Below the pieces are notes generated by a model that was not told the origin of the DNA, searched no databases, and worked only from the letters and a program-made list of their open reading frames with translations. From Coriobacteriia bacterium (GTDB lineage: Bacteria > Actinomycetota > Coriobacteriia > WRKU01), in assembly GCA_009777935.1 (NCBI GenBank), contig WRKU01000012.1, positions 1 through 46,083 on the forward strand: a DNA stretch of 46,083 nt, written 5' to 3'. A program made the translations under genes and the position numbers. Shown here piece by piece: positions 8,626 through 36,657 of this stretch; position 1 is the first letter of the stretch; the number at the start of each line of letters is the position of its first letter.

Positions 8626-9239
8626 AACACTCCCTTATACTGCACGTATGAAACGGTAGTAGAACCGTACTCCTTTTCACGCAGAAGTGCAAATCCTGCC
8701 GGTGGCTCGAATGTTGCCAATGTTGATTGCGCGCTCGATACGCCACGCTCGTAGACCACAAGAGCGCCAACGGCGCAGACGCGCGTCGATGCGATATCTG
8801 TGAGGAGAGCGGCCACCTCCTGAGGTGCCGTATCGTAAGGTGGGTCGACAAAGATGAGGTCGGCAGCGCGCGGAAGTCGCGCCATCAAGGGCCCTATCGC
8901 AGCCGATGGTCTTGCAGGAGCAAGCGTGCCGGCCACAACCTCAACACGCTCTTCGCATCCAAGAGTCCCAGCGTTCGCGGCGATAACCCTCCGTGCGTCG
9001 TGATCACACTCGACCATCACGGCGTGTGCCGCACCACGCGACAGCGCCTCGAACGAAAGAGCGCCGCTCCCGGCGTACAGATCGAGTACCTGGAGCTCAG
9101 CGAGTGCACCGAGCATCGAAGTCAGCGAATTAAAGATCGCCTGGCGCACCTTGTCGGTCGTCGGGCGAGTCGTCGTCCCCCGCGGCACCTCAAGCCGCCG
9201 TCCGCGCCACGCGCCTCCGGTTATACGCACGCCACTCAT
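8622..9239 (-). CDS. rsmD: 16S rRNA (guanine966-N2)-methyltransferase
   Basis: SAM-dependent methyltransferase acting on the small subunit rRNA. The start is ATG at 9239 (205 residues), beginning MSGVRITGG as the family does; its ATG overlaps the recG stop codon in an ATGA, and GGTGAG lies upstream. Motif I is LDLYAGSGALSFEALSRGA and motif IV is VDPPYD, the N6/N2-amino methyltransferase signature. It is translationally coupled to recG upstream and coaD downstream through 4-nt overlaps. Confidence 0.96.
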   Translation of the reverse strand: MSGVRITGGAWRGRRLEVPRGTTTRPTTDKVRQAIFNSLTSMLGALAELQVLDLYAGSGALSFEALSRGAAHAVMVECDHDARRVIAANAGTLGCEERVEVVAGTLAPARPSAAIGPLMARLPRAADLIFVDPPYDTAPQEVAALLTDIASTRVCAVGALVVYERGVSSAQSTLATFEPPAGFALLREKEYGSTTVSYVQYKGVL

Positions 9240-11302
9240 CCTGCACTCACCCACGAGGCGTAGCGAGTACGTAGTTCTTCGATGCGTGCATTGAGCGCCC
9301 TGTGCGTAGGTGCGGCAAGCGTGGGGTCGGCCGCCACCAGTGCGGCAGCATCGGCCTTTGCCAGCTCAAGTATCGGCAAGTCCTCAACGAGATGCGCCAC
9401 GCGAAACTCGGCAAGCCCGTGCTGACGCGTGCCCATAACTTCGCCCGGCCCGCGAATCTCAAGGTCAACTTCGGCGAGTCGAAACCCGTCGGTCGTACTC
9501 TTGAGCGCCTCAAGCCGTTGTCTCGTGCGCGGCGCACGCGCTTCACTAATGAGCCACGCCTCACCCGGGTGCTCGCCGCGCCCCACGCGCCCCCTCAGTT
9601 GATGAAGCTGCGCGAGCCCGAAGCGTTCTGCGTTATAGATGAGAATCTCCGTTACGTTCTGCACGTCAACGCCGACCTCGATAACGGTCGTCGCCACCAA
9701 CACGTCGAGCTCGCCGGCGCGAAACCGACGCATAACCTCTTCTTTGTCGGCCACCGGGAGCGAGCCGTGCAAAAGACCGACTCGGTAGTCGCGGTACACA
9801 CTTTTCGCAAGCTTTTCAGCAAGCTCGGTCGCAGCGCGGGCCTCAACCTTCGTCGAACTTTCGATGAGCGCGCAGACGATGTAGGCCTGTCGCCCCGCCT
9901 TAAGCGCGTCTTTGACGGCGCGATGTGCGCGCTCATCGTTGGCCGGATGAATAAGATGCGTGGTCACCCCGGCTCCTTCGATGGGACGTTTGGTGATGAG
10001 CGTAACGGCAAGATCGCCGTAGATCGTCAGCGCCAACGAGCGCGGAATCGGTGTCGCCGTCATGACGAGTACATCCGGGTTGACGGCCTTTTCGGTGAGC
10101 GCTTTGCGCTGATCGACACCAAAACGATGCTGTTCGTCGATGATGGCGAGCGTGAGGTTAGCGTATTCGACCTCGGGCTGCATCAGCGCATGCGTGCCAA
10201 ACACCACGCAACACTCCCCCTCACGCACTGCCGTCAGTATCTCGCGGCGTTCGGCCTCTTTCGTAGCGCCCACAAGCACCCGCCACGCAATCCCGACCTC
10301 GTCGAGAATCGGTCCGAGCTTCTCGGCGTACTGGAGGGCAAGAATTTCGGTCGGTGCCATCATCGCGGCCTGCGTGCCCGACTCTGCCGCTGCGAACAGT
10401 GCACCGGCTGCCACGAACGTCTTACCGGTACCAACGTCACCAAGTAACAGCCGTTGCATGGGCACAGGTGCAGCCATATCCTGCCAAATACGGTCCAACG
10501 CCGCCGTTTGCTCATCGGTCAAGGTGACCCCAAGCGCCGCGATACCGCGCTCAACGAGCGAGCCGGTTACCGTATGGGCGTATCCAACACGCTCGACGGT
10601 TTCACTGCGACGCTGCATTTCCTTTAAGACGCTGAGCTCGAAAAATTCCTGATACGCAAGACGGTTGCGTGCCGCAGAGCTTTCGGCAAAGACCGTGGGC
10701 GCGTGCACGTCGTGAAGCGCCTGCTCCAACGTGCGCATACGATGGCGTACGCGCAGCTCATCAGGCAAGATTTCCTCGGCAAACGTGGTATCGGCGAGCA
10801 CATCGATAACGATACGACGCATCCACCCCTGCGAGAGGCCCTCGGTCAAACGATAGACGGGAAAGACGCGCCCTTGTGCCTCATCATCGACACCGAGCTT
10901 TTGGACGAACGGTGCCGCCATGCGTCGCATGCCGTACTGGTACGTCATCGTACCGGAAAAGGCACAGCGATCACCGACCTTGTAGACCGTCTCAACCCAC
11001 GGCTGATTAAACCACACACCGAGGACGGTACCGCTCCCATCGGTGAGTGCGACCTCGGTCACCTGTAGCTTCGGACGCGGTCGCTTCGTCTGCACCGATA
11101 CGACTTCACCGCTCACCGTTATGTCACCTTCGAGCTGATTGCCGATACGCGCCAGATTCGAAAGATCGATGTAGCGAAACGGCGCGTACATCAAGAGGTC
11201 ATAGACGGTTTCGAGCGAGAGTTTCTTCAGGAGCTTTTCGCGTGCACCATCAACGTGACGCGCGTGGCTCAGCGGAGTATCGAACGTCAACGCCACCTGC
11301 AA
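9236..11302 (-). CDS. recG: ATP-dependent DNA helicase RecG
   Basis: Double-stranded DNA translocase that remodels stalled replication forks. The 688-residue protein has the N-terminal helical and OB wedge region (about 55-150), then SF2 helicase domains with Walker A GDVGTGKT (288-295), DEQHRFGV (389-396), TATPIPRS and the final QLRGRVGRGEHPG motif VI, followed by the TRG-type C-terminus. The start is uncertain: TTG at 11302 is the first possible codon, and a GTG two codons later would also fit. No strong ribosome binding site is visible for either, but the degV stop is only 12 nt away, so coupling is likely. Neighbours rsmD and coaD follow directly. Confidence 0.96.
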   Translation of the reverse strand: MQVALTFDTPLSHARHVDGAREKLLKKLSLETVYDLLMYAPFRYIDLSNLARIGNQLEGDITVSGEVVSVQTKRPRPKLQVTEVALTDGSGTVLGVWFNQPWVETVYKVGDRCAFSGTMTYQYGMRRMAAPFVQKLGVDDEAQGRVFPVYRLTEGLSQGWMRRIVIDVLADTTFAEEILPDELRVRHRMRTLEQALHDVHAPTVFAESSAARNRLAYQEFFELSVLKEMQRRSETVERVGYAHTVTGSLVERGIAALGVTLTDEQTAALDRIWQDMAAPVPMQRLLLGDVGTGKTFVAAGALFAAAESGTQAAMMAPTEILALQYAEKLGPILDEVGIAWRVLVGATKEAERREILTAVREGECCVVFGTHALMQPEVEYANLTLAIIDEQHRFGVDQRKALTEKAVNPDVLVMTATPIPRSLALTIYGDLAVTLITKRPIEGAGVTTHLIHPANDERAHRAVKDALKAGRQAYIVCALIESSTKVEARAATELAEKLAKSVYRDYRVGLLHGSLPVADKEEVMRRFRAGELDVLVATTVIEVGVDVQNVTEILIYNAERFGLAQLHQLRGRVGRGEHPGEAWLISEARAPRTRQRLEALKSTTDGFRLAEVDLEIRGPGEVMGTRQHGLAEFRVAHLVEDLPILELAKADAAALVAADPTLAAPTHRALNARIEELRTRYASWVSAG

Positions 11303-22409: not shown

Positions 22410-23146
22410 GCCGTTCCAGTCTCCCCGTTTTCTCGTGTTTTGCGCTCCAAAATCGCTTCCGCTATCGTTACATCCTCAGATCGCGTAATCTTGATATTAT
22501 CACGCGGCCCTTCAAACATGATAACCGTACCGCCGTCGGCTTCGACGAGCGCCGCGTCATCGGTTGCATCGATGTTACGTGCCACGGCATGCTCGTAGGC
22601 CGCAAGCAGACGTTCAAAGCGGAAAATCTGTGGCGTCTGCACGGCCCAATAGCGGCTTCGGTCAGGTGTTTCACACACCACCTCGCCATCGACACGTTTC
22701 ATGGTATCGACCATAGGGTAGCCCACCGCCACACCGTCAACACCTGCTGAAAACAGTTTTTTGCATGCTGCCTGCACCGTTTCCGGCGCTATAAAAGGAC
22801 GTGCTCCGTCATGTATCGCTACAAGCCCATCACGCGCCGTAACGACATCGAGACCGCAACGCACCGACTCGCTGCGCGTCGCGCCACCTGCTACAAACCG
22901 TAGCGATACCTCATATGCTTCGATATCGATCTCATCGCACACGGCGCGCTCGTACTCATCGACACGAGCCGGATCACACACAACGACTATCTCATCGACA
23001 CAGGACGTGGCGGCAACGGCCTCGACCGTCCACGCCAAAAGCGGACGACCTGCCAACGCGAGCATCTGCTTACCACCGGCCATCTCAAGACGTGAGCCGT
23101 TGCCGCCAGCGGCAACGATCGCGGTGACGGCTACGTTACCGAGCAT
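22406..23146 (-). CDS. ispD: 2-C-methyl-D-erythritol 4-phosphate cytidylyltransferase
   Basis: CTP-dependent cytidylyltransferase of the MEP pathway. 246 residues, slightly longer than usual. The glycine-rich CTP loop [20 protein letters not shown] near the N-terminus, the [11 protein letters not shown] segment, [10 protein letters not shown] with the metal-binding Asp, [11 protein letters not shown] and the closing [14 protein letters not shown] are all family hallmarks. ATG start with GAGG about 8 nt upstream. The gene overlaps the end of radA by 16 nt. In Bacillus disA and yacL lie between radA and ispD; here they are absent. Confidence 0.97.
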
Positions 23147-24465
23147 GATATCTGCCTCACCGAATCGAGCGTATCGGCACCGATGATATTCGTCATGCCA
23201 AGCGCATGCGCCTCCTTGGTGCGCGCCGCAGCGGCCGGTGCCACACGCACCGCGCCTGTCAGCGATACCTCCCCGAAGGCGACAGACTGTGCCGAGAGCG
23301 GCCTATCCTTAAGCGCCGAGTACAACGCACAGGCAAGTGGCAGATCAAGGGCGGGCTCGGTAAGGCGAATCCCTCCGGCCACGCTCACGATAACATCGAG
23401 CCCGGCAAACGACACGCCACCATGACGTTCGAGTACCGCGATGACTTGAAGAAGTCGGTTGGCGTCGAGCCCGGTCGCTAACCGCCGAGGAAGTGGCTGG
23501 TAGCTTGGGGTCACGAGTGCCTGAATCTCTACGAGGAGAGGGCGCGATCCTTCCATCGCAGCAAAGAGTGCGCTCCCCGCAACGCTTTCATCGCGCGCCT
23601 CGACGAAGGCTTGGCTCGGCGATGCGACCGGGGTGAGACCCTTCTCGCCCATCTCGAAGATGCCGATCTCATCGGACGCACCGAAGCGATTTTTTACCGC
23701 ACGAATGATACGAAACGCATAGCTCGCATCGCCTTCAAAGTACAGGACCGTGTCGACCATATGCTCAAGTACGCGCGGGCCGGCGAGCGAGCCGTCCTTC
23801 GTGACGTGTCCAACCACGACGACCGTCATCCCGTGCTCTTTGGCGAGGCGCATGAGACGTGCGCAGGTCGCCCGTACCTGATTTACGCTGCCCGGTGTGC
23901 TCTCGATATCGGGATCGGTTATCGTCTGAATCGAGTCGATGATGATGAGGTCAGGACGATATTCGAGCGCCGCACGTTCGATGAGTACCCCATCGGTCTG
24001 CGGCAACAGCGAGACAGTCTCTGCGTCGAGCCCGAGCCGTGAGGCACGCAGCCCGATCTGTGCCGGTGACTCCTCTCCGCACACATACATAATCTTTGCG
24101 CCGCTTCGTGCCAGCGAGTCGGCGGCCTGCAAAAGCAGCGTCGATTTACCGACGCCCGGCTCTCCGCCAAGCAGCACAAGCGAGCCTTCGACAAAGCCGC
24201 CGCCCAGTACGCGGTCGAGCTCGGTGAGGTTCGTCGGCTGGCGACGTGGTTCATGACCGCACGCGTCTTTGAGCGTCGTAACTTCGGGTACGGGGCCGCC
24301 GTGTGCCGCACGCGCCGAGCCGCCGGCCGAGCCAAGCGCACCTGCCCCGATAGACGTCTCCTCGCTGAGCGTGCCAAACTGTCCACACTCGTTACAGCGC
24401 CCCTGCCAGCGCGGCGCCTGCGCATCGCAGTTCACACACACCCACACGACCTGTTGGCGCGCCAC
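23131..24465 (-). CDS. radA: DNA repair protein RadA
   Basis: RecA-like branch-migration helicase of recombinational repair. 444 residues. An N-terminal four-cysteine zinc finger (Cys10, Cys13, Cys24, Cys27) precedes the ATPase core with Walker A GGEPGVGKST (100-109), Walker B LIIIDSIQT and the RadA-specific KNRFG motif. The C-terminal Lon-protease-like domain is present (LPLACALYSALKDRPL). The GTG start shares its first base with the last base of the clpC stop, and AGGCGG lies just upstream inside clpC, so translation is coupled. Confidence 0.97.
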   Translation of the reverse strand: MARQQVVWVCVNCDAQAPRWQGRCNECGQFGTLSEETSIGAGALGSAGGSARAAHGGPVPEVTTLKDACGHEPRRQPTNLTELDRVLGGGFVEGSLVLLGGEPGVGKSTLLLQAADSLARSGAKIMYVCGEESPAQIGLRASRLGLDAETVSLLPQTDGVLIERAALEYRPDLIIIDSIQTITDPDIESTPGSVNQVRATCARLMRLAKEHGMTVVVVGHVTKDGSLAGPRVLEHMVDTVLYFEGDASYAFRIIRAVKNRFGASDEIGIFEMGEKGLTPVASPSQAFVEARDESVAGSALFAAMEGSRPLLVEIQALVTPSYQPLPRRLATGLDANRLLQVIAVLERHGGVSFAGLDVIVSVAGGIRLTEPALDLPLACALYSALKDRPLSAQSVAFGEVSLTGAVRVAPAAAARTKEAHALGMTNIIGADTLDSVRQISCSVT

Positions 24466-30681: not shown

Positions 30682-32484
30682 TTAGCGAGGCTCTGTTGCG
30701 TTCGGAGTGTCCTTTGACATGACGCGGCGAACCTCAAAGACACCGGGCACCCGGCGCAAGTCATCAAATAAGGCCTCAAGGCGCGTCAGATCGCCCATCT
30801 CAAAGAGAAAGCGCATGTCAACGACGCCGTCGGGGTGTGCGTACGACGACGACTCGATGATGTCGACTGACGCGCCGGCAACCTGCATCGTGACGTCTTG
30901 CAAGAGGCGCAAACGGTCGGTCGCACGCACAGCAATCTCAGCGCGCGGGGCCAGCCCCTTTTGACGCTTGCGCTTCTTCGCCGGCTTCGGCGCCGGGACG
31001 AACGGGGCGCTTTCGTCGGTCGTACCGGCCTCACCGAGAAGACGGCTCTCTTTGCGCGCTTCGCGGGCGAGAAACGAACGTATCTTCGAGCGCGCCGAGC
31101 TCGTCACCACGATGTCGAGCCACTCGCGTGTCGGCGCCGCGCTCTGTTGGGTCAGCACTTCGATACGGTCGCCGTTTTGTAGCTCGTAGGTGCGCGGTAC
31201 GATCTCACCGTTAACCTTTGCACCTACATAGTGGATGCCAATCTCGGTATGAATATGGAAGGCAAAGTCGAGCGGTGTTGAGCCACGCTTTAATGATTTG
31301 ACCTCGCCTTTCGGGGTAAAGACAAAAACCTCTTCCTGAAAGAGATCGATCTTTAGCTCCTCCATGAATTCGCTGGGATCTTCGAGCTCGGTCTGCCATT
31401 CGAGCATCTGGCGTAGCCACGAAAGTCGTTCGTCAAAGTCATCATCGTGACCTTTATAGCGCCAGTGCGCTGCCACACCATATTCGGCCGTTCGGTGCAT
31501 CTCATGAGTGCGAATCTGCACCTCAAGAGGATTTCCTGCCGGCCCAATGACGGTCGTGTGCAACGACTGGTACATGTTGAACTTTGGCATCGCCACGTAG
31601 TCCTTAAAACGTCCGGGAATCGGCGTATAGAGACTGTGCACGAGGCCGAGCACGCTGTAGACATCGGGGATTGTATCGACGACGATACGCAGGCCGAGCA
31701 GGTCGTATATCTCGCTAAAGTCCTTACCCTTGGCAATCATCTTTTGATAGATAGAGTAGAGGTGCTTCGGGCGCCCCTGAATCTCGGCCGTGATATCGTG
31801 CTCGTCGAGCACCGCCTGAATCTCGGCCATGACCTGCATGGCGTATTCATCGCGTTGCGCGCGAGACTGGTGCACCATCTGCGCTACCATCGAGTATTTG
31901 ACCGGGTCAAGATAGCGAAACGCAAGATCCTCAAGTTCCCACTTAATCTGCGAGATGCCGAGGCGATGCGCAAGCGGTGCAAAGATCTCCATCGTCTCGC
32001 GCGATTTTTCTATCTGCTTGTCTTGAGGCAACGCCGAGAGCGTGCGCATGTTGTGGAGGCGATCGGCAAGCTTGATAAGAATCACGCGAATATCACGCGC
32101 CATTGCGATAATCATCTTGCGCATCGATTCGGACTGTTGCTCGGTATAGGTATCAAACTCGATCTTGCGCAGCTTCGTAATGCCGTCGACGAGCAGGGCA
32201 ACCTCGGCACCGAACCGGCGCTGTACGTCGGCAAGCTCGATACCGGGACAGTCTTCTACGGTGTCGTGGAGAAGCGCCGCCTCTATCGTGCGGAAGTCGA
32301 GACGCAGGTCGGCGAGTATCGTCGCAACCTCAAGCGGGTGCGTGATGAACTCATCGCCCGACTCGCGCAGCTGACCTTCGTGTGCGAGAAGCGAAAACTC
32401 GTAGGCCTCGACGACCGAGGCAATCTCGTCGGCGTCGTGGTTCTCGGCAAGGCGAGCAGCGAGTGCTTCGATCGTTACGCTCAT
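30682..32484 (-). CDS. RelA/SpoT-family (p)ppGpp synthetase/hydrolase, shortened C-terminus
   Basis: Makes and degrades the alarmone (p)ppGpp. 600 residues against the usual 730-790. The HD hydrolase domain is intact (His49, HDTVED 73-78, Asp141-Arg142). The synthetase domain has GRPKHLYSIYQKM (237-249), YDLLGLRI and RFKDYVAMPKFN (292-303) with the RxKD form of bifunctional enzymes; the next motif reads NMYQSLHT where the family has NGYQSLHT. A TGS domain (about 385-447) and a C-terminal ACT domain (about 512-590) are present. Only ~65 residues lie between them, ending in a Lys/Arg linker, so most of the helical and all of the zinc-finger/RIS region is missing. The ATG overlaps the recJ-recQ stop in an ATGA. 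Confidence 0.95.
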   Translation of the reverse strand: MSVTIEALAARLAENHDADEIASVVEAYEFSLLAHEGQLRESGDEFITHPLEVATILADLRLDFRTIEAALLHDTVEDCPGIELADVQRRFGAEVALLVDGITKLRKIEFDTYTEQQSESMRKMIIAMARDIRVILIKLADRLHNMRTLSALPQDKQIEKSRETMEIFAPLAHRLGISQIKWELEDLAFRYLDPVKYSMVAQMVHQSRAQRDEYAMQVMAEIQAVLDEHDITAEIQGRPKHLYSIYQKMIAKGKDFSEIYDLLGLRIVVDTIPDVYSVLGLVHSLYTPIPGRFKDYVAMPKFNMYQSLHTTVIGPAGNPLEVQIRTHEMHRTAEYGVAAHWRYKGHDDDFDERLSWLRQMLEWQTELEDPSEFMEELKIDLFQEEVFVFTPKGEVKSLKRGSTPLDFAFHIHTEIGIHYVGAKVNGEIVPRTYELQNGDRIEVLTQQSAAPTREWLDIVVTSSARSKIRSFLAREARKESRLLGEAGTTDESAPFVPAPKPAKKRKRQKGLAPRAEIAVRATDRLRLLQDVTMQVAGASVDIIESSSYAHPDGVVDMRFLFEMGDLTRLEALFDDLRRVPGVFEVRRVMSKDTPNATEPR

Positions 32485-35400
32485 CGCGGACCTTGCTCGG
32501 TAGGGAGAATCGGCTTATTGAACCGATCGAGAAGCTCCTCGGCGCTCGCCTGCATGACCCACTCTTTGAAGTCGGTAAAATCGATCATCTCTTCTTTGCC
32601 TTCGAGATAACGTATGCTGCGCTCAAGCTCGACGCGCTCAGGACGTGGTGTCAAGGTAATGCGGCGTGCGCTGCTGCGTCCGTCGGTCGTCAGGAAGCCA
32701 AGCTCACGAAAGACCGCGACGACGGCACTCACTGTTTTGTCGGTAACGCGCATCGGCAACGGCCCCTGCTGTTTAAGAATCTCGGTCGTGCGCAGGGCGA
32801 TTTCGTCGTTGGTTATCGAGAACGGCTGACCCTGCTCGCCCGCTAGATCGCCGGCCACTGCGTGAAGTGCCTGATAGACGGCGGCGCATACTTCGCGCGG
32901 CGGCGCTAACGACGCGAGGATGTGGTCGTTGATGGCAGCGTCTTTTTCGCCGAAGAGAAGATGGACGGTCGCACGAGCGCCGTCGCGCCCGCTGCGCCCC
33001 GCCATTTGGTTGAACTCGACGGCCGAAAACGGCAGGTGATAGAGGACTACATGGCGGATATCGGGGATGTTGACGCCTTCGCCAAAGGCGCTCGTCGCAA
33101 CGACGACCTGCACACGTCCATCACGAAACCGTCGCTCGATTTCATGACGCGCGCTCTTTCCCAGACCCCCGTTGTAGAAGACGGTCTTCCACGCGAGCTC
33201 CGGTATCGATTGGCGAATCGTACGCGCGATTTTTACCGACTCATGACGCGAGTTAACGTAGATGACAACCTTCTCGCCTCGGCCCACGAGCTCAAGTACA
33301 TAGCTCATCTTCTGTGCGCAGCCACGCTCATCGGCAACGCAGAGATTGTCGCGCATCGAGTGGTCGAGCACCCGATTGTCGATAGCGAGCGCCTCGCAGA
33401 TGGCGTCGGCGACCTCATCGTCGGCCGTCGCGGTGACCGCAAGGGCCGTGGGATTGCCGAGCTTTTCGGTCGCGGCGCGCATCGCCGCATAGGCCGGGCG
33501 ATTGCCCGCCTTCGCCTGTCCGATATGATGCGCTTCATCGACGACGACAAAACCGATGCGCGCACCGACGGCGAACTTCTCGGCGTGAAAGTGAAGGAAC
33601 TCAGGCGTGGTAAGGATGACATCGAGGGTGCCTTCTCGCAGGGCCTCGAAGCTCTCGGCGCGCGCCGTACTTGAGCTCTCCCCCGTCACAATTGCGACAG
33701 AGAGCCCAATCTCGGCGAAGGCATTTTCGAGATGATAGGCTTGGTCTGCCACGAGCGCGCGCAGCGGATAGACGAATATCGATGCCTTCTTTTGCAGCAA
33801 CGCCGTTTTAGCTGCGTGCATATGAAAGATGAGCGACTTGCCACGCCCCGTCGCCATAACGGTCAAGGTGTTGAGCCGTTGCTCAAGCGCCTCAAGCGAG
33901 CGCTTCTGTGCATCGTGAAGCTCGAAATCGCCGATAAAGTGTCGAGCGAGTGCCTGTTCGAGCTCACGGGGGCTCATCTGCTCGTATCGTGCGCGCTGCA
34001 TGATGCGATATGAGCCACGGCGCTCCTGTGTAAAGCCGTCACTGTGTCGCACCACGATGTTCAGGCCACGCGCGCGCTCCGGACCGCTTTCCGCACCCGC
34101 GCCTTCCGTACGCACGCCTTCGACATCCGGACCACCGGTAATCGAAGCGATCTCGGCGAGATAGACTGTTCCCTCGTCGATGGCCGGTGCGAGCACCACG
34201 GCGAGATCTCGATTGAGAAAACCGAGCTGTGCGGAGTCAAAGTAGGCGCTCAAACGCGGGGCGACGACCGCAATGGCGTTCGGATCGTATGCGTTGTTGA
34301 CATCGCGTACGAGCTCAATTTCGTCGTCTTCACGAAGCTGCGCCAGTATCTCTTGACGCCCCTCGAACGTCACGCCGGCGAGCTTGGTAAAAAACGACGA
34401 CGCATCAAGGATACCGTCGTAGTCACGGCGCGTAAGTGTCTCGTCGGCGTGCTCAAAGAGCTCGGAGACGAATTCGCTGCGCGCGGGGTCGTGTTGGCTT
34501 GGATCGGTGAGCGGTTCGAGCCGCTGCACAACCATATGAGGACAGCGCCGCCCACTCCACTCGTCGGCCTCGAAGGTAAAGATGACGTTGGCCACCGTAA
34601 TAGCAGCCGTATCCTTGATCTCGGGCGGGCAGCGAAAATAGATAGCTGCGACCTTCCTGTCGCCTTGAACGGCGGAAAACTTGAGATGTGTGCCCTCTTT
34701 GCCCACCAGGTTGATGTCGGCAATCTGCACGTTACGTGCGAGGAAGAGTGGGCGCTCGTTCGCTTCACCGAACGGTTCGAGCTGCGCCAGCTCGTCGACG
34801 AGCTCCAGCGTTAATTCATCGATATCGACGAGCGCATCGGTATGATCGACGGGGGTAAAGCTCTCGGCGTCGAGCTCGTCGAGGTGCGCAAGAAGCGCGG
34901 TACGAAAGGCATCGATGTTCTCCTCTTTGAGCGAAAGACCAGCGGCGGCATAGTGGCCCCCCCAGCGTTCAAGGTAGGGGCTGCATGTCTTAAGCGCCGT
35001 GAAGAGATCGACCTGCCCAACGCTTCGTCCCGAACACGAGGCGATGCCATCCTCGATAGAACAGAGAAACGCCGGGACACCATAACGCTCTGCAAGACGT
35101 GACGCAATGATTCCCTTGACGCCATCGTGATAGTCGGCATGTGCCAACACGATAGCGCGCTCGCCTCGATATGATTCATCGAGCTCGGCCGTGGCCATCT
35201 CCATCAGGTCGCGTTCGATACGTCTGCGTTGACGGTTGCACTCATCGAGAAGCGACGCGTAGCGCAGCGCCTCACCGTAGTCGTCGGTCAGAAGCAGGTT
35301 GAGTGCTTCAAGAGGCGTGCCGATACGTCCGGCCGCATTGAGGCGCGGCGCGAGCGAAAACGAGATGCGCTCGGCCGTTGCGCTCGCAAGGTCGACGGCG

Positions 35401-36176
35401 GCAGAAGCGGCGAGCGCGGTGATGCCGACGCTGGGGTTCTGTGCCAGCTTGGCAAGCCCCGCCTTAACGAGCGCGCGATTCTCGCCCCGCAGTGGCATGG
35501 CGTCGGCGACGGTGCCGAGCGTCGCAATATCGAGATATTCACGCCAGAGTTCGGGCTGGCCCAGCGCGGCCCCAAGCGCCTGTATTACCTTAAGTGCGAC
35601 GCCGGCACCGGCAATCTCCGGGCCACAGCCGCCCTCATCGAGGGCGACGCCATAGGCGGCATCGAGCTTCGGGTTAACGACCGGGATATCTTCGGGAACA
35701 CGGTCGGACGGCTCGTGGTGGTCGGTCACGATGACATCGATGCCGCGGGCCCGGAGTTGCCTCACCTCGTCGCGCGCGCTGATGCCGGTGTCGACCGTCA
35801 CCAGCAGATGCGGCTCGGTTGCAACGATACGCTCAATCGAAGTATCGGAGAGGCCGTATCCATCTTCGATACGATGAGGCAGTATAGGTACTGCATCGAT
35901 ACCGAGCGCACGCATGCCACGCACGAGAATCGCCGTCGCGCTTATACCGTCGAGGTCGTAGTCGCCAAACACACAGACGCGCTCGCCGACCTCTGCCGCC
36001 GTCGCCATACGCGCAACGGCCGCCTCCATCCCGTCGATCAGATACGGATCGAGCCAATCACGTTCAAGGTTCGCCGTCAAAAAGTATTCGACGGCCTCAG
36101 GGGTCGTCAGACCGCGTTGCGCTAAGATCTCGGTAAAGATACGCGAAGGCGCCGCAGGTGAAGTAGCCTTATCCAC
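32481..36176 (-). CDS. RecJ exonuclease - HIRAN - RecQ-like helicase fusion
   Basis: A single 1231-residue frame. Residues 1-560 are a full RecJ: DYDLDG (72-77), DHH (152-154), the DHHA1 GGHYAAAG motif (406-413) and an OB-type part (455-555). Residues 592-685 form a HIRAN domain, with LVRDVNNAYDPNAIAVV (622-638). Residues 750-1230 are an SF2 helicase close to RecQ: Walker A TGRGKS (776-781), DEAH (880-883), TAT (915-917) and QMAGRSGRDG (1057-1066), with a winged-helix-like end but no recognisable zinc cluster or HRDC. RecJ degrades single strands 5' to 3' and classically works with RecQ in RecF-pathway resection, so the fusion makes mechanistic sense. GTG start overlaps the smpB stop by 8 nt; the stop overlaps rel by 4 nt. 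No frameshift or stop interrupts it. Confidence 0.93.
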   Translation of the reverse strand: MDKATSPAAPSRIFTEILAQRGLTTPEAVEYFLTANLERDWLDPYLIDGMEAAVARMATAAEVGERVCVFGDYDLDGISATAILVRGMRALGIDAVPILPHRIEDGYGLSDTSIERIVATEPHLLVTVDTGISARDEVRQLRARGIDVIVTDHHEPSDRVPEDIPVVNPKLDAAYGVALDEGGCGPEIAGAGVALKVIQALGAALGQPELWREYLDIATLGTVADAMPLRGENRALVKAGLAKLAQNPSVGITALAASAAVDLASATAERISFSLAPRLNAAGRIGTPLEALNLLLTDDYGEALRYASLLDECNRQRRRIERDLMEMATAELDESYRGERAIVLAHADYHDGVKGIIASRLAERYGVPAFLCSIEDGIASCSGRSVGQVDLFTALKTCSPYLERWGGHYAAAGLSLKEENIDAFRTALLAHLDELDAESFTPVDHTDALVDIDELTLELVDELAQLEPFGEANERPLFLARNVQIADINLVGKEGTHLKFSAVQGDRKVAAIYFRCPPEIKDTAAITVANVIFTFEADEWSGRRCPHMVVQRLEPLTDPSQHDPARSEFVSELFEHADETLTRRDYDGILDASSFFTKLAGVTFEGRQEILAQLREDDEIELVRDVNNAYDPNAIAVVAPRLSAYFDSAQLGFLNRDLAVVLAPAIDEGTVYLAEIASITGGPDVEGVRTEGAGAESGPERARGLNIVVRHSDGFTQERRGSYRIMQRARYEQMSPRELEQALARHFIGDFELHDAQKRSLEALEQRLNTLTVMATGRGKSLIFHMHAAKTALLQKKASIFVYPLRALVADQAYHLENAFAEIGLSVAIVTGESSSTARAESFEALREGTLDVILTTPEFLHFHAEKFAVGARIGFVVVDEAHHIGQAKAGNRPAYAAMRAATEKLGNPTALAVTATADDEVADAICEALAIDNRVLDHSMRDNLCVADERGCAQKMSYVLELVGRGEKVVIYVNSRHESVKIARTIRQSIPELAWKTVFYNGGLGKSARHEIERRFRDGRVQVVVATSAFGEGVNIPDIRHVVLYHLPFSAVEFNQMAGRSGRDGARATVHLLFGEKDAAINDHILASLAPPREVCAAVYQALHAVAGDLAGEQGQPFSITNDEIALRTTEILKQQGPLPMRVTDKTVSAVVAVFRELGFLTTDGRSSARRITLTPRPERVELERSIRYLEGKEEMIDFTDFKEWVMQASAEELLDRFNKPILPTEQGPR

Positions 36177-36657
36177 GCGTGCGCTCTTTCAGGGCGCGCT
36201 CGATATCACGCTGTGCATCCCGGGCGGCGATTGTGGCACGCTTATCGTAGAGTTTTTTACCCCGGCAAACCCCGACCTCTACCTTGACGCGATTGCTCGG
36301 CGAAAAGTAGACGCGCGTCGGCACGAGCGTATAGCCCTTCTCTTTGACCTTGGCCGCAAGCGCGCGAATCTGGCGTTTGTGTGCGAGGAGCTTACGATCG
36401 CGCACCGGGTCGACGTTGGCCATCCCTCCATGGCTATACGGCTTGATATGGACGCCGATAAGCCACAGCTCGTTGCGGCGAATCGTGACGTAGCTCTCGC
36501 GCAACGAGAGACCGTGCGCACGAATCGATTTAATCTCGGTGCCGGTTAAGACGACGCCACACTCGATCGTCTCTTCGACGTGATAGTCGTGGTACGCCTT
36601 TTTATTGGTGGCGATACGCCGGTCGTGCCGGCCGGTCTCTTGTGCGCGTTTTGCCAC
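36169..36657 (-). CDS. smpB: SsrA-binding protein SmpB
   Basis: Partner of tmRNA in ribosome rescue. 162 residues with the family blocks NKKAYHDYHVEETIECGVVLTGTEIKS, HGLSLRESYV, the HIKPYSHG loop and the basic helical tail KKLYDKRATIAARDAQRDIERALK. GTG start with GGAGGT about 7 nt upstream, and the M42 peptidase stop is 15 nt away. The tmRNA gene itself is not in the window. The start codon of the recJ-recQ fusion lies inside the smpB 3' end. Confidence 0.97.
   Translation of the reverse strand: MAKRAQETGRHDRRIATNKKAYHDYHVEETIECGVVLTGTEIKSIRAHGLSLRESYVTIRRNELWLIGVHIKPYSHGGMANVDPVRDRKLLAHKRQIRALAAKVKEKGYTLVPTRVYFSPSNRVKVEVGVCRGKKLYDKRATIAARDAQRDIERALKERTRG

Follow-up and report, generated by a model that had tools for sequence, protein, structure and literature searches.

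A RecJ nuclease joined to a HIRAN domain and a RecQ-like helicase in Coriobacteriia, and an apparent remnant of the helicase in RecJ of Bacillota

The stretch of DNA analysed here, called the window, comprises 46,083 nucleotides of contig WRKU01000012.1 from a member of the Coriobacteriia, whose draft genome amounts to 1.1 Mb and is 86% complete. On its minus strand the window encodes a RecJ-type nuclease whose chain continues beyond the RecJ core into a HIRAN domain, a RecQ-like helicase and a winged-helix module. In textbooks RecQ and RecJ form a resection pair of two proteins, and each has been studied as an enzyme of its own; a natural one-chain version that is universal in one bacterial class allows their physical coupling to be tested directly with one construct. 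In open-licence full texts we found no description of a RecJ with a HIRAN domain, of a RecJ-RecQ fusion or of the origin of the ssDNA-exonuc_C domain, an absence that is not in itself proof.

The fused gene and its locus

The gene and the domains of its 1231-residue product are as follows:

32481..36176, minus strand: recJ-HIRAN-helicase-winged-helix gene; 1231 codons, GTG start at 36176, stop at 32481-32483
35511..35981, minus strand: DHH phosphoesterase domain, residues 66-222; Pfam PF01368, 77.1 bits; motifs GDYDLDG, VTVD, TDHHEP and ATLGTVAD
34890..35156, minus strand: DHHA1 domain with GGH, residues 341-429; Pfam PF02272, 47.7 bits
34524..34841, minus strand: RecJ OB domain (RecJ_OB), residues 446-551; Pfam PF17768, 91.4 bits
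34158..34397, minus strand: HIRAN domain, residues 594-673; Pfam PF08797, 34.3 bits, gathering score 24.7
33405..33911, minus strand: helicase RecA lobe 1, residues 756-924; Pfam PF00270 (DEAD), 78.9 bits; TGRGKS, TTPEF, DEAHH and TATAD, class-invariant
32979..33311, minus strand: helicase RecA lobe 2, residues 956-1066; Pfam PF00271 (Helicase_C), 88.7 bits; YVNSR, TSAFGEGVN and NQMAGRSGRDG
32493..32924, minus strand: C-terminal winged-helix module, residues about 1085-1228; hhalign 3.9e-14 for the module alone against the Bacillota RecJ tail (hhalign E-values, here and below, are those of a single pairwise comparison)

The original prediction had described one uninterrupted 1231-residue frame with complete RecJ motifs, a HIRAN domain and a complete superfamily 2 (SF2) helicase with RecQ-like motifs, and had proposed a Pfam search for DHH, DHHA1, HIRAN, DEAD and Helicase_C. 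All of this was borne out: the frame is open throughout when read on the minus strand (the strand had not been given, and the plus strand of 32481-36176 is interrupted by stops), the five domains and RecJ_OB all exceed their curated Pfam cut-offs, and SF2 motifs I-VI are present. The protein also belongs to RecJ by the NCBIfam equivalog TIGR00644, with 478.4 bits against a cut-off of 396.9. The winged-helix module, which is conserved and had been overlooked, is homologous to the last part of domain IV (ssDNA-exonuc_C) of Bacillota RecJ; the Pfam family for this domain, PF10141, reaches 14.2 bits on the window protein against a gathering score of 26.4 (E 0.038) and, at an E limit of 0.01, matches 4 of 13 fused proteins, the best at 6.8e-5.

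The gene is flanked on both sides by overlapping genes:

30682..32484, minus strand: relA/spoT-type (p)ppGpp synthetase-hydrolase; Pfam HD_4, RelA_SpoT, TGS and ACT
36169..36657, minus strand: smpB; PRK05422.1, 202.6 bits, cut-off 130

The start of the relA/spoT-type gene shares 4 bases with the recJ stop and the end of smpB shares 8 bases with the recJ start, within the order ftsE-ftsX-ctp-M42 peptidase-smpB-recJ-relA. A relA gene lies directly downstream at 59 of the 65 class loci with room for it, at 32/33 fused Bacillota loci and after 51 of 79 other named RecJs: since it follows fused and plain RecJ alike, the locus is the usual one of recJ, whether or not a helicase is attached. A check of the draft genome for separate genes, likewise proposed at the outset, found neither a second RecJ (threshold E 0.001) nor a RecQ that reaches the family cut-off, at the 86% completeness given above. 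In our judgement the gene probably encodes the organism's ordinary, vertically inherited RecJ carrying an attached RecQ-like helicase, a putative one-chain nuclease-helicase. RecO is present in this genome and in 19 relatives; in the search for AddA no genome passed the cut-off, and weak matches in long frames were present. Two further recombination proteins are encoded on the minus strand of the same 46 kb, RecG (9236-11302) and RadA/Sms (23131-24465).

Conservation in the class and relation to RecQ

A match to the window protein was obtained across the class, in 295 of 300 genomes, and the complete fusion is found in one frame at 67 of 69 loci from other class genomes, the remaining two being cut by a contig end (L074) and split in frame (L075). 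That the window gene could be an assembly chimera, a frameshift read-through or a chance join of two genes, an outcome that the original prediction had named as fatal to it and for which nothing speaks except that textbooks rarely show such an architecture, is rejected by these independent one-frame loci and by the recurrence of the fusion in another class and in Bacillota, and we regard its probability as negligible. The split at L075 (genome G238) divides RecJ-helicase into two frames near residue 383 and represents either an assembly frameshift or a recent pseudogene.

The 68 class proteins compared retain with little variation GD[FY]DxDG, TVD, DHH, PRLNAAGR, GGH, [AG]TGRGKS, DEAHH, TATA, SAFGEG and GRxGRD, and their mean identity is similar over the two halves (helicase 55% vs nuclease 53%); between the window protein and that of locus L007 it is 73% in the helicase and 57% in RecJ. 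Among 43 fused proteins, distances in RecJ and helicase correlate with a Mantel r of 0.60, and among 24 intact proteins from outside the class with one of 0.86 (0/999 permutations each), values that are not corrected for shared descent. Sequence comparison thus shows the two halves to be co-inherited.

The fused helicase is, as far as its sequence can tell, not a RecQ proper, since it stays below the cut-offs of the RecQ families (173.9 vs 219.8 bits for TIGR00614 and 173.4 vs 640.2 bits for TIGR01389) and forms a clade of its own beside RecQ. This clade lies outside RecQ with a support of 100 in a quick tree that carries a long-branch warning and includes only 7 RecQs (all trees reported here come from FastTree or quick searches). 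Neither an RQC nor an HRDC domain was matched by Pfam in the window protein or 12 relatives, and residues 1067-1231, which follow lobe 2, contain one cysteine only (1097) and hence no zinc cluster, whereas Bacteroidales RecQs show it: the absence of zinc cluster and HRDC had been foreseen correctly. The nearest solved structures by sequence and fold are bacterial RecQs (4tmu/1oyw), with bacterial RecQ also ranking first in a Foldseek search with the modelled helicase half, and the fused helicase would, by inference, work like RecQ.

The HIRAN domain is a less constant part of the protein. PF08797 was matched in 12 of 13 relatives, the family profile matches the HIRAN domain of HLTF, for which structures have been solved (2mzn, 4xzf), at E 1.3e-12 over 49 columns, and the N, D and A of the stretch RxxxNxxDxNA are invariant. 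The domain is cleanly absent, however, from 18 of the 68 class proteins, all with intact helicase motifs: here the stretch from OB domain to helicase measures 51-103 residues, compared to about 190 in the window, whilst the winged-helix C-terminus is kept in all. Presence and absence of HIRAN require five changes on the FastTree tree, at least two of them on strongly supported branches. Because it has been lost from proteins that keep an intact helicase, HIRAN is by this comparison accessory and dispensable; the earlier idea that DNA recognition might have passed to HIRAN, which would make it an essential DNA reader, was rejected on account of the same losses. Several OB-helicase linkers of HIRAN-less relatives (L038, L042, L046, L048 and others) are cysteine-rich (CCCEAQKRE, CQDCQCNGDKNLWDQEC) and perhaps form a small metal site.

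The fused helicase in Bacillota and domain IV of RecJ

Outside the window's class, a 397-genome sample of the phylum contained the fusion in seven genomes (families f30, f83 and f92), all from one other class, of which they make up 7/36 genomes. In Bacillota, a helicase of the fused type was found at E below 1e-100 in 31 of 399 genomes, and among the loci read, 29 have helicase and RecJ in one frame with Walker A intact; HIRAN is present in 27 of these. Searches of viral contigs returned only one meaningless 24-residue match with the whole protein and only distant helicases with the helicase profile, and plasmid and phage collections held no full-length fusion.

RecJ of Bacilli ends in a tail of about 210-250 residues, domain IV, and profile comparison relates this tail to the fused helicase. 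Aligned with the class helicases, a profile of 32 Bacilli tails gave E 9.8e-13, and with the full set of fused helicases 3e-15; the aligned region extends from lobe 2 across the winged helix. Adding tails of the Halanaerobiia type brought the match to the helicases to 5.4e-18, over 217 columns. Taken by itself, the RecA-like part matched all helicases at 7.5e-5 (Bacilli only) and at 1.4e-6 with Halanaerobiia-type tails, with five column shuffles as control giving 0.43-0.86. The tail profile finds residues 556-756 of S. aureus RecJ (8y30) at 8.4e-41, and the Deinococcus RecJ structure 5f54 was not among its matches; for the C-terminal domain of Deinococcus RecJ, binding of HerA and SSB and the lack of a defined homologue have been reported (PMC4663267, PMC4846377). 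The fold searches are consistent with this relation without being decisive, so that the claim rests on the profile comparison: the B. mojavensis tail as modelled by AlphaFold (predicted local distance difference test score, pLDDT, 90.8) consists of an alpha/beta lobe and, after it, a winged helix, and Foldseek of the Bacilli tail ranks 8y30 first, ahead of weak matches, at E 0.008 and up, to DDX3, to Hel308 and to winged-helix regulators. The tail of Bacillus and Staphylococcus RecJ (ssDNA-exonuc_C) thus appears to be a remnant of the fused helicase, the stump presumably having been kept for DNA or protein contacts. Many Clostridia RecJs retain only the winged helix and others have no tail.

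The loss of the helicase can be followed in the Halanaerobiia, where the loci read comprise 7 intact, 7 full-length but dead and 16 stump forms of the fused helicase. In the seven genomes with intact helicases the RecJ tail measures 682-688 residues. The long but dead helicases (G814, G841, G963, G1068, G1099, G1101, G1102) are still recognised by the helicase profile (1e-45 to 1e-88), or align to it, although their motifs are gone: Walker A reads for example SVNSSDILP or APLGIEAKS, and motif VI RERSQLICSD or KSLLTGLGKET. In the sixteen stump forms the tail measures 190-297 residues and in most cases matches no part of the helicase other than lobe 2 and winged helix. The helicase branch of L269 is 2.19 long compared to 0.043 in its sister L237, with RecJ branches of 0.41 and 0.23; a long helicase branch beside a modest RecJ branch indicates relaxed constraint on the motor alone. 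The conversion of a motor into a scaffold is documented here with unusual completeness, and it seems to us fairly likely that the helicase half decayed repeatedly in Bacillota and left RecJ domain IV as a stump. In G814 the motor seems to have moved to its own gene: a stand-alone HIRAN-helicase-winged-helix gene (L242, a 657-residue frame with motifs intact) is present, and the recJ of this genome (L267) carries a dead copy. Many Halanaerobiia genomes, G300, G814, G963 and G1099 among them, also encode a second, shorter RecJ paralogue of about 765-795 residues.

Several independent fusions of a HIRAN-helicase to recJ could be proposed instead of one ancient fusion with repeated decay, given that the RecJ core tree scatters the fused Bacillota over six changes (FastTree only) and that one genome carries the stand-alone gene L242. 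We consider this unlikely: domain order and locus are the same everywhere, the helicases form one clade, the dead and shortened forms represent loss in progress and the genome with the stand-alone gene still has the dead copy in its recJ. An ancient fusion with subsequent loss is therefore likelier than repeated fusion or transfer. We hold it to be the probable history, with some room for doubt, that the ancestral RecJ of the lineage including Bacillota and the basal classes of Actinomycetota was a single-chain RecJ-HIRAN-RecQ-like helicase, which is intact in the window and whose helicase is left, as a dead remnant, in domain IV of the Bacillus and Staphylococcus RecJs. The homology offers a first origin for this domain, which RecJ of Bacillus, Listeria and Staphylococcus contains, and predicts for it a RecA2-like fold, no ATPase activity and an old surface for contacts with DNA or partners.

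Putative function and comparison with known systems

In E. coli, RecQ (3'-5') helps RecJ (5'-3') to widen gaps at their 5' side and the two fall into one epistasis group (PMC9203016); RecJ alone copes with 5' overhangs, RecQ being needed for blunt or 3'-overhang ends, and a direct RecJ-RecQ interaction was not seen in Deinococcus (PMC4846377). The fusion is best read, we infer, as a self-contained resection or gap-processing machine. The helicase half would move 3'-5' along one strand and open the duplex ahead, with the displaced 5'-ended strand entering, within one molecule, the channel of the RecJ half that admits only single-stranded DNA, where it would be degraded 5'-3'. HIRAN would probably grip a 3' end or a single-/double-strand junction, as in HLTF, and the winged helix would provide duplex or partner contact. 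Wider post-replication gaps and resected ends would result, on which RecFOR could load RecA; as RecO occurs in the window genome and in relatives, RecFOR would be the recipient of these products.

Several points weigh against this proposal. Activity, polarity and coupling of the fused enzyme are taken over from the RecQ and RecJ families. The aromatic-rich loop of RecQ is not conserved (window DEAHHIGQAKAGNRPAY vs RecQ DEAHCxSQWGxDFRPxY), because of which, as read from the sequence, DNA binding must be coupled to ATP use in another way than in RecQ. The model of the helicase half is moderate (mean pLDDT 65), with HIRAN not folded and few close homologues available, and gives no basis for a domain arrangement. 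Finally, a true separate RecQ is also present in 69 of 120 class genomes, so that the fusion as a replacement for a missing RecQ is only partly true and the fusion must do something that RecQ does not replace.

The lack of RecQ zinc and aromatic-loop features would also fit a helicase half that serves as a translocase or clamp driven by ATP, one that clears away SSB, RNA primers or protein and makes RecJ processive without true unwinding, and the repeated loss of ATPase motifs from persisting lobes indicates that a non-catalytic role is tolerated. As all SF2 motifs are kept across the class and in the 29 fused Bacillota loci that have Walker A, such a role is possible but doubtful as an account of the intact protein. 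Somewhat less likely still is fork remodelling, in which HIRAN would bind the nascent 3' end, the helicase regress a stalled fork and RecJ trim the nascent lagging strand: the profile match to HLTF HIRAN and the invariant HIRAN residues agree with it, but HIRAN is missing in the 18 class members noted above, the dedicated fork helicase RecG is encoded in the same window and the helicase is RecQ-like rather than SNF2-like. An anti-phage defence nuclease-helicase is highly improbable, although the best PADLOC matches are the DpdF and PsyrT helicases (DpdF model 1.4e-58, over the helicase only), since this reflects the shared RecQ-like helicase fold; a defence island was rejected on the grounds that the gene is class-universal and stands in a housekeeping recJ-relA locus with no adjoining defence partners.

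The fusion has a natural two-gene counterpart in Bacteroidales, in which recJ and recQ are adjacent separate genes: in Bacteroides finegoldii (L076) and Parabacteroides distasonis (L077) recQ directly follows recJ, with an 8-base overlap and a 9-base gap, respectively. This adjacency is independent support for a functional pair. It links the same two activities genetically, but in two chains, with a true RecQ that has the zinc cluster and without HIRAN. Compared to RecJ (TIGR00644; E. coli, Thermus, Deinococcus and S. aureus 8y30) the window protein has the same DHH-DHHA1-OB core with all motifs, and shares with many Bacillota the position before relA, but continues past the OB domain into HIRAN, a complete helicase and a winged helix. 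With RecQ (TIGR00614; 4tmu/1oyw) it shares the R-x-N motif, the DEAH and TATA motifs and a winged helix after the lobes, whilst differing in family score, clade, zinc cluster, HRDC and aromatic-rich loop as described above. Domain IV of Bacillota RecJ (PF10141; 8y30 residues 556-756) is homologous to lobe 2 and winged helix of the fused helicase, but has neither the first lobe nor the ATPase motifs and is shorter (about 210-250 vs about 500 residues). In HLTF the HIRAN domain, alike by profile, precedes an SNF2 motor, whereas here it stands between nuclease and RecQ-like helicase and is often lost. DinG with an exonuclease domain (PMC12345164, PMC12525004) is likewise a bacterial helicase fused to an exonuclease, although its nuclease is unrelated (DEDD, 3'-5') and its helicase is XPD-like and moves 5'-3'.

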